64,000 nucleotides of DNA, from positions 2,909,001 through 2,973,000 of the forward strand of contig NZ_CP006587.1 in NCBI RefSeq assembly GCF_000737515.1, in the 5' to 3' direction. Below the pieces are notes generated by a model. It saw only the letters and a list, made by a program, of their open reading frames with translations, was not told the origin of the DNA and did no database searches. Each line of letters begins with the position of its first letter. Within the stretch, counting starts at the first letter, position 1. The DNA is from Hymenobacter sp. APR13. Lineage in GTDB: Bacteria; Bacteroidota; Bacteroidia; Cytophagales; Hymenobacteraceae. Position numbers and translations under genes: made by a program. Below, piece by piece: positions 20,870-21,880 of this stretch.

Positions 20870-20895
20870 CCGGCTACCAGCCGCCCAGGCTCAAA

Positions 20896-20939
20896 TAAAA
20901 AGCCCGATTTGTGAGTTATACCACAAATCGGGCTTTTGT
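20896..20939 (+). terminator. Terminator of the asparaginase gene
   Basis: The long stem AAAAGCCCGATTTGTG/CACAAATCGGGCTTTT with a short loop lies 27 bp after the stop codon. Confidence 0.9.
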
Positions 20940-20998
20940 TTGGGACGGTGGTACTATGGCCTCTCTTATTTTACGTTCTTTGCACCCGATTTGAAATA

Positions 20999-21123
20999 GT
21001 GTGGGTGAAACGCTTCCTAGAATGGAATGTAAAGCGACAGGACAGGACAAAAAGAAGGCGGCACCCACCCAGATGCCGCCTCTTGGAAAGGAACGCACCC
21101 ACCCAGATACGTTCCATTTTTTT
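20999..21123 (+). ncRNA. Putative small RNA: two hairpins with the same C-rich loop
   Basis: The hairpin at 21057-21080 has stem GGCGGC/GCCGCC and loop ACCCACCCAGAT. The hairpin at 21090-21115 has a different stem, GGAACG/CGTTCC, but displays the same 12-nt loop and is followed by seven Ts (21117-21123), a proper intrinsic terminator. Loop conservation with stem change argues for function in RNA. C-rich loops are typical antisense seeds of bacterial small RNAs. A weaker stem, TTCC/GGAA, lies at 21012-21025. The 5' end is not defined. A minus-strand reading (loop ATCTGGGTGGGT, T-rich run after 21057) is also possible, as an extension of the tRNA-like gene. Confidence 0.4.
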
Positions 21124-21149
21124 CCTCCTCACATTATCCACCCAGTCAG

Positions 21150-21264
21150 CTGTAGAAGAAGGAGTCGAACCTCCACGGTGTGGTTAGCCGGCCGCCGGAC
21201 CAGTTTTTCCCGAATCACCACCCCCGAGAGAGGAGGGCATGTCTGCCAGTTTCATCATTCTACA
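21150..21264 (-). tRNA. Unusual class II tRNA-like gene (loop triplet CTC)
   Basis: The minus strand folds as a full cloverleaf: 7-bp acceptor TGTAGAA/TTCTACA; positions 8-9 TG; D arm ATG-AAACTGGCAGA-CAT with the conserved GG; anticodon arm CCCTC-CTCTCTC-GGGGG; 46-nt variable region 21220-21175; T arm GGAGG-TTCGACT-CCTTC; then G as discriminator. No CCA is encoded. The D arm resembles tRNA-Leu, but the anticodon-position triplet CTC (21230-21228) would read Glu, which fits no class II tRNA. The variable region is two to three times the normal length and can itself fold (GGTG/CACC, CCGG/CCGG). It may be a specialised tRNA-like RNA or a decayed tRNA. Confidence 0.5.
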
Positions 21265-21321
21265 AGGACAATCCCTCGCCGTTTGCGTAGGATTACAACA
21301 AATGTAGATGTTTGCCTTGAA

Positions 21322-21415: not shown

Positions 21416-21880
21416 ATGGCTAAGAATTACGAACTTGACGACACCGACCGCAAGATTCTGGATCTGCTGATCCACGATGCGAAGATGCCCTACACCGAAA
21501 TTGCCCGTAAAGTGCATGTTTCCGGCGGCACGGTGCACGTGCGGATGGCCCGTCTGGAGGAACTGGGCATCGTGAAAGGCGCTACCCTGGAGATTGACTA
21601 CCAGAAGTTGGGCTACGGCGTAGATGCTTTTCTGGGGATTTATCTGCTGAAAAGCTCGGTGTATGCCAGTGTAGCTGCCCAGCTGCGCGAAATCCCGGAG
21701 GTGGTTAGCATCCATTTCACTACGGGCGCCTACGGCATTTTTGCCCGCATCCGGTGCCGCGACACGCAGCATCTGCGCGAGGTGCTGCACGGGCAGATGC
21801 AGCTCATCGAAGGCATCGAGCGTACCGAAACCCTGATTTCGCTGGAAGAGTCGCTCAACCGCCCCATCCAGCTGCTGTAA
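21416..21880 (+). CDS. Lrp/AsnC family transcriptional regulator
   Basis: A 154-residue protein with an N-terminal winged helix-turn-helix (LDDTDRKILDLLIHDAK, then IARKVHVSGGTVHVRMARL) and a C-terminal RAM/AsnC ligand-binding domain (about 70-150; SIHFTTGAYGIFARIRC). Lrp-type proteins form octamers and respond to amino acids. A strong dyad lies immediately upstream, and an asparaginase gene lies on the other side of the tRNA-like locus. Effector and regulon are unknown. The length is typical. Confidence 0.92.
   Translation: MAKNYELDDTDRKILDLLIHDAKMPYTEIARKVHVSGGTVHVRMARLEELGIVKGATLEIDYQKLGYGVDAFLGIYLLKSSVYASVAAQLREIPEVVSIHFTTGAYGIFARIRCRDTQHLREVLHGQMQLIEGIERTETLISLEESLNRPIQLL

Follow-up and report, generated by a model that had tools for sequence, protein, structure and literature searches.

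What kind of RNA is made by a gene that has every arm of a tRNA together with a 46-nt variable region and a CTC triplet in its anticodon-type loop? The gene lies in a 64,000-nucleotide stretch of DNA from Hymenobacter sp. APR13 (contig NZ_CP006587.1, positions 2,909,001 to 2,973,000 of the forward strand), and the whole of this stretch is what we call the window. A sequence-only reading had described there a cloverleaf with a 46-nt variable region, a CTC loop triplet and a G discriminator, all of which can be read directly on the minus strand, where a full tRNA cloverleaf runs from 21264 to 21149. We use TRL for the family of tRNA-like RNAs to which this gene belongs. The parts of the window's member are arranged as follows.

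21149 to 21264, minus strand: TRL gene, U1 to C74, 116 nt, based on its sequence, on a conserved family with covariation and on covariance model R1 (128.6 bits).
21258 to 21264, minus strand: 5′ strand of the acceptor stem, TGTAGAA, pairing with TTCTACA at 21157–21151 over 7 bp.
21239 to 21255, minus strand: D arm with a 3-bp stem (ATG/CAT) and an 11-nt loop, AAACTGGCAGA, in which GG is conserved, from sequence and alignment.
21221 to 21237, minus strand: anticodon-type arm CCCTC-CTCTCTC-GGGGG with a 5-bp stem and a 7-nt loop at 21232–21226; the CUC triplet is at 21230–21228.
21175 to 21220, minus strand: variable domain of 46 nt with a covarying 4-bp base stem (21219–21216 with 21180–21177).
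21158 to 21174, minus strand: T arm GGAGG-TTCGACT-CCTTC with a 5-bp stem and a standard T loop, from sequence and alignment.
21149 to 21157, minus strand: 3′ strand of the acceptor stem, TTCTACA, followed by discriminator G73 (21150) and encoded C74 (21149); G73-C74 is present in 110/110 distinct cellular members.

The conserved loop positions of the anticodon-type arm are U35, C36 and C38, and the window's variable domain continues from its base stem into an internal-loop motif, GGGAAAAA/CUAAC, and then a variable upper hairpin. ARAGORN called neither a tRNA nor a tmRNA in the window, and Rfam gave no match, tmRNA included, at the gathering score over the same DNA. Between 20870 and 21420, a search up to E 10 found no match to tRNA, tRNA-Sec, tmRNA or bacterial Y RNA (YrlA), a family that the Rfam library includes. 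The Rfam tRNA model RF00005 has the same fold as TRL, but its genome-wide list up to E 1 holds 44 places and TRL is not among them. As a separate observation, the same genome contains outside the window a second odd tRNA-like gene (L081 150–420; C1:4707128–4707239, minus strand) that scores 55 bits with the Rfam tRNA model and is missed by ARAGORN; its anticodon arm carries a long unaligned insert that includes ATTACCTCCTCGGG, and only one of 58 other genomes matches it over most of its length (84%).

Folding the single TRL sequence gave a result no better than that for shuffled sequences (z 0.42) and did not recover the full cloverleaf. Single-sequence folding is thus uninformative here, and the proof of the fold is comparative. 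We aligned 24 of 33 kept sequences, with identical ones merged and two (L018 and L042) left out for want of a recognisable 3′ end. In these 24 copies, 575 of 576 pair cells are intact, and changes on both sides of a pair occur in all five helices, namely the acceptor, D, anticodon, variable-arm base and T helices, as compared with only 51–63% pairing in a control where the partners were slid. Two further alignments, both fitted to R1 and therefore biased towards it, gave 99.8% paired cells for 72 distinct rows (among them one tRNA-Leu, one partial match and several sequences of the first set) and 98.3% for 25 rows, 24 of which come from outside the order. Orthologues with compensatory changes, which the sequence-only reading had named as a check, are therefore present for every stem in all three sets, and its view that the arms are intact and the gene is no old wreck holds up well.

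Which positions of the RNA are kept can be seen from 110 distinct cellular sequences, a set from which sequences shorter than 100 nt (including a 77-nt form described below and a tRNA-Leu match) or containing N were excluded and in which one member of poor register (L199) was retained. U1-A72, G2-C71, G73-C74 and A14 are found in 110/110 and U8 in 109/110. In the loop, U35 and C36 are each present in 110/110, with a register finder that favoured UC at these two positions, and C38 in 108/110. The flanking positions are looser: position 33 is T93 G9 C6 A2, so that U33 is missing in 17, position 34 is G71 C18 A16 T5, leaving 39 members and the window's own copy without G34, and position 37 is T94 C11 G5 and never A. 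Position 10 is mostly A, with G10 not fixed, and the second D-stem pair is mostly U-A. Because positions 33, 34 and 37 vary while U35, C36 and C38 hold, the pattern is NNUCNC, with the window's CUC as one version, and the CUC triplet itself is not the conserved feature. The glutamate specificity once read from CTC is not supported, since N34 varies and TRL has G73 where the tRNA-Glu of this genome has A73.

The variable domain measures 38–106 nt in the long forms that we read; most carry an internal loop, A-N-AAA opposite CUAAC, and many of the long domains add the motif GGGUUGACCAC. When ordinary tRNAs of the genome were scored with R1, in 21 loci that make up part of its tRNA set, five tRNA-Leu came out on top at 47.6–51.5 bits, followed by tRNA-Gln (42.2), tRNA-Ser (40.3) and tRNA-Tyr (37.7), and no tRNA-Asp matched up to E 10.

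How widely is such a gene kept? The DNA around TRL matches 48 of 59 genomes searched, with its own genome counted, and seven of the 48 match only at or near the hairpins that lie beside the gene (G016, G019, G022, G024, G025, G027 and G029). For the order Cytophagales we counted by hand a strong R1 member in about 212 of 291 genomes, the other 79 having no match better than 1e-17; all 291 give some match at E 0.01, but the weak ones include ordinary tRNA-Leu. In the class, R1 matches pass 1e-13 in 28 of 158 genomes, 22 of them from outside the order. Among 247 genomes of the phylum, a sample in which the share of other classes is not shown, 24 pass 1e-15 and all 24 belong to the window's class. 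A pattern scan that demands G34, and so has the window's own form outside its reach, found at least 119 stretches; the 80 named contigs among the matches listed are all Bacteroidota by title and include Cytophagales, Chitinophagales and Saprospiraceae. In the NCBI taxonomy, Chitinophaga belongs to Chitinophagales and Saprospiraceae to Saprospirales, and the conservation of TRL extends over no fewer than three Bacteroidota orders. It is often multi-copy: 38 stretches selected for TRL hold 77 copies, many of them in arrays of two to seven.

Within the window's own genus the picture is more varied. R1 finds the long form at more than 100 bits in 83 of 120 genomes. In 25 there is just a 77-nt form of about 70–72 bits, in 4 there are copies of 64–83 bits, and in 8 neither form appears at E 1e-12. 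The long and the short form never occur together in these 120 genomes (E 1e-12), so that the 77-nt form seems to replace the long one, although this exclusivity may reflect a single replacement event. A DNA search with the short form agreed with this, yielding 25 strong matches and a diverged one (G481), besides five weak ones that fall on long forms. Reading of 14 short-form genomes showed that the long arm is gone and the anticodon stem is CTAGC/GCTAG, with the loop CTATCTC and G73-C74 kept; the one short locus tested with ARAGORN (L198 2338–2414, minus strand) was called tRNA-Asp(atc). An anti-Shine-Dalgarno CCUCC as a general function was rejected because the short form has CTAGC/GCTAG and some other members have CCTCC, CCGCC, CCACC or CCAGC as anticodon stem. 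At the lrp locus a few members of the genus have a decayed or deleted TRL (L018, L019, L023 and L345). From the 8 genomes with neither form and the 4 with low-scoring copies, TRL appears to be dispensable in some lineages.

TRL is also carried by viruses. The TRL pattern matches 87 IMG/VR stretches, and with a threshold of 65 bits R1 confirms 79 of the 80 fetched; the remaining one is truncated by the contig end. Ten proteins from ten viral contigs were searched; nine match phage families, including terminase, portal, DNA polymerase and RNA ligase/tail attachment, and one is without a match, so that at least the matched contigs are phage. Other tRNA or tmRNA genes are present in 47 of the 80 viral stretches, up to 25 tRNA genes in stretches such as L397, L402, L381 and L358, where TRL adjoins a tRNA-Ser, and some with a tmRNA. 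In 19/80 viral loci TRL has a same-strand tRNA-Ser at a distance of 10 nt or less, with a 4-nt spacer in 16, and some stretches that carry TRL also have a normal tRNA-Asp(gtc) (L365, L381, L388, L397, L398 and L402). The viral search pattern fixed positions 35–38 and the anticodon stem and left 32–34 and 73 free; U33, G34 and G73 are nevertheless found in every one of the 60 distinct phage copies, one of which lacks U1-A72; in assembling these 60, rows shorter than 130 nt were excluded, identical rows were merged and 4 of 64 proved not to be TRL.

The giant arm of the phage copies has a feature of its own. A palindrome of at least 6 follows GACCAC in 37 of 45 distinct phage segments as compared with 12.9 in shuffles, a number that related phages inflate; in cellular segments the same test gave 4/20 vs 5.4, which is no enrichment. 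The palindromes include GCGCGC, GCATGC, GTGCAC and GCCGGCCGGC, and it is possible that they form dimerizing loops or tiny hairpins. Weak R1 matches were also seen to phage tRNA-Leu-like sequences with a long insert (L358 7682–7830, L365 4907–5050 and L421 5269–5412). Searches of plasmids and of a phage isolate collection with the window sequence and with one viral copy gave no match; another viral copy together with its tRNA-Ser neighbour gave 732 records, and the 20 matches listed are all at or near the tRNA-Ser part only. TRL as a gene of plasmids or of known phage isolates was accordingly set aside.

The surroundings of the window's gene bear on how it may be transcribed, and three features are needed here.

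21299 to 21306, minus strand: promoter-like element TACATTTG of the TAnnTTTG type, 35–42 nt upstream of U1.
21057 to 21115, minus strand: twin hairpins (21115–21090 and 21080–21057) with CTGGGTGGG loops and a T-rich run after the second, from sequence and fold.
21416 to 21880, plus strand: Lrp/AsnC-type regulator, the divergent neighbour (Pfam PF01037 4.3e-17, PF13404 4.9e-17).

Of 121 upstream regions, 69 have TAnnTTTG, which we take to be the Bacteroidota promoter type, in the 80 nt before the gene, where shuffling gives an expectation of 5.2, and so do 11 of the 14 short-form genomes read. Spacers in the TRL arrays are often shorter than 110 nt and in one case (L139) only 14 nt. At the other end of the gene, the earlier statement that no CCA is encoded stands for the full CCA, but C74 is encoded, and this is the usual state for the tRNAs of this genome: CCA is rarely encoded and C74 is kept in 37 of 38 distinct ARAGORN calls (register assigned by script). 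The lack of an encoded CCA is therefore not abnormal here.

TRL and the twin hairpins had been proposed to form one RNA with a tRNA-like head and a hairpin tail. The two may share a transcript, which is plausible given TACATTTG upstream and no T-rich terminator visible by eye between them. The joint RNA as a functional unit was rejected, however, because each part occurs without the other: the twin hairpins and the promoter element persist in three loci where TRL has decayed or been deleted (L049, L050 and L345), and TRL is also found without the hairpins. This persistence makes the twin hairpins, which together have four GGG tracts, a separate element, and they look like a separate small RNA. 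A further strong hairpin, at 20893–20945 on the plus strand between the convergent asparaginase gene (Pfam Asparaginase_2) and the hairpin RNA, scores below the cut-off for mir-2831 and is probably a two-way terminator.

A gene for an Lrp/AsnC-type regulator adjoins TRL in 16 of 39 loci (the window counted, and a few loci sharing a genome), in all 16 directed away from it, and this divergent arrangement is seen again in other families. Past the Lrp/AsnC gene, in at least 6 loci, are suf-type genes, presumably suf as judged from their sequence. The block of suf-type genes, lrp/AsnC and TRL occurs in L140, L146, L156, L159, L164 and L165, which represent several families and suggest an old neighbourhood. 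Of the neighbours, which were partly annotated, lrp/AsnC and suf-type genes are the commonest and further recurring clusters are less frequent. Among the annotated neighbours we identified no partner enzyme, and nothing was found for the peptide ligation role that had been suggested.

Which synthetase would read this RNA? PMC9976931 gives G73, G34, U35, C36 and C38 as the strong determinants of aspartate identity and also names G1-C72 and G10, with G2-C71 as a minor element. Of the five strong determinants, four are nearly constant in TRL and the remaining one, G34, is found in 71/110 cellular and 60/60 distinct phage copies; from the other elements, G1-C72 is absent (U1-A72 in 110/110) and G10 is not fixed. 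For serine, PMC9976931 and PMC7609411 list G73, G2-C71, R4-Y69, a large variable region, C72 and C11-G24, and the former describes G73 as an antideterminant against LeuRS. We favour AspRS because four of the five strong aspartate determinants are present, the serine set fits the long form only and G73 speaks against LeuRS. Each of the 10 genomes tested for aspS gave a single gene above the cut-off, and a dedicated AspRS for TRL was rejected on this ground.

Several other explanations have to be weighed against charging by AspRS with a use outside elongation, which we rank above decoy, serine and decoding functions. The RNA might be an uncharged decoy or regulator that titrates a reader of the Asp-type loop, such as AspRS, a modification enzyme or an anticodon nuclease, and that phages carry as a counter-defence. 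We regard this as unlikely while taking it seriously, because the loop and acceptor end are kept while the stem sequence changes, phages carry the gene, often beside tRNA genes, and the non-universal U33 and the lack of A at 37 suggest poor decoding; on the other hand, the invariant C74 and intact fold suggest full maturation, and it is hard to see why hosts in three orders should retain a decoy. A seryl-tRNA of class II, used inside or outside translation, would account for the class II body, the G73 and large variable region that SerRS uses and the same-strand tRNA-Ser next to 19 of the 80 viral copies. It is distinctly unlikely in our view, since the serine set has C72 and C11-G24 where TRL has A72 and mostly U-A, the strict U35-C36-C38 loop is left unexplained and the armless 77-nt form seems to take the place of the long one, while the proximity to tRNA-Ser may stem from shared phage ancestry.

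That TRL decodes as an additional tRNA-Asp isoacceptor, or mistranslates deliberately (e.g., CUC reading GAG as Asp), is quite improbable. The usual purpose of phage tRNA arrays is translation, the short form was taken by ARAGORN for a tRNA-Asp, and U33-G34-U35-C36 with C38 is complete in all 60 distinct phage copies, where positions 35–38 were set by the viral pattern, and in many cellular ones; against this, U, C or G but never A at 37 in all 110 cellular members, the 17 without U33 and the four different bases at 34 do not suit a decoding tRNA, and some viral stretches with TRL also have a normal tRNA-Asp(gtc). That TRL is a decaying pseudo-tRNA, as absence or stem decay in relatives might have indicated, has next to no chance of being right and is refuted for the family as a whole by covariation in five helices, by occurrence in three orders and by the phage copies; the decay or deletion at the lrp locus was seen in a few members of the genus.

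The reading that we prefer makes TRL a tRNA-like RNA that is processed, receives aspartate from the ordinary AspRS and acts outside ordinary elongation, and we hold it tentatively, at somewhat less than an even chance. TRL would be transcribed from its own promoter, as the conserved upstream element suggests, and cut and trimmed like a tRNA, to which the shared C74 and the short array spacers point; a CCA end would probably then be added. Its body is that of a class II, tRNA-Leu-like molecule with a variable arm enlarged into a structured domain. Charging by the ordinary AspRS is proposed because the constant G73, U35, C36 and C38, often with G34, match what AspRS reads, and poor decoding because A is lacking at 37, not all members have U33 and cellular copies vary at N34. 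The charged RNA would deliver aspartate, or report AspRS activity, outside normal elongation, and this function may be needed during infection, since phages carry their own TRL, many beside tRNA genes. Three points weigh against aspartate charging: 39 of the 110 cellular members and the window's copy do without G34, bacterial tRNA-Asp has G1-C72 and G10 in place of TRL's U1-A72 and unfixed position 10, and the body is like tRNA-Leu and not tRNA-Asp, as the R1 scores show.

TRL can be compared with several known tRNAs. In a canonical elongator tRNA, U33 and a purine at 37 flank the anticodon; TRL shares with such tRNAs the 7/5 acceptor-T cloverleaf and the D-T loop contacts (U8, A14, GG, TTC) but has U33 in only 93/110, mostly T at 37 and no fixed anticodon, as N34 varies. 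Like bacterial tRNA-Leu, it has a 3-bp D stem, an 11-nt D loop, a 7/5 domain and a long variable arm, whereas the tRNA-Leu discriminator is A73 and TRL has G73, U1-A72, an Asp/Glu-like loop and a structured domain of 38–106 nt. With bacterial tRNA-Asp it has in common G73, U35, C36, C38, G2-C71 and often G34, and it differs in its class II body, U1-A72, unfixed position 10 and pyrimidine or G at 37. The likeness to tRNA-Ser, in G73 and the large variable region, extends to the long form only and not to the armless 77-nt form, and TRL's A72 and mostly U-A pair differ from the C72 and C11-G24 of tRNA-Ser. The allo-tRNAs and selC* tRNA-Cys, as PMC7609411 describes them, are likewise non-canonical bacterial tRNAs with long variable arms and odd anticodons, some of them polycistronic, but they have 8/4, 9/3 or tRNA-Sec-like acceptor domains and diverse anticodons, whereas TRL is 7/5 with one loop motif; the 8/4, 9/3 or 13-bp domain of allo-tRNA and tRNA-Sec is absent from TRL, which has a 7-bp acceptor and a 5-bp T stem. 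The tRNA-ProX of actinomycetes resembles TRL in being rare, of mixed identity and unusual at position 33, and has a dedicated ProRSx according to PMC11415595, unlike the single aspS seen in each of the 10 genomes tested here.

We found no description of TRL in the open-licence literature on tRNA-like RNAs in these taxa, an absence that is no proof, and we place TRL among the non-canonical tRNAs, with a real chance that its function is new. A more specific form of the aspartate reading is possible though on the unlikely side: a non-decoding second aspartyl-tRNA, widespread in Cytophagales, Chitinophagales and Saprospirales, would act as a carrier or sensor outside elongation, and phages would bring their own copy, perhaps forming dimers via the palindromic loops of the giant arm. 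The family thus represents a conserved, often multi-copy tRNA-class gene that seems to be undescribed across a large part of a major phylum and its phages; its long form escapes ARAGORN in the loci tried, and no Rfam family matches it. If TRL is charged, these bacteria would have one more tRNA species, with a function other than decoding, and if it is uncharged, it would be a new tRNA-mimic regulator at the phage-host interface.
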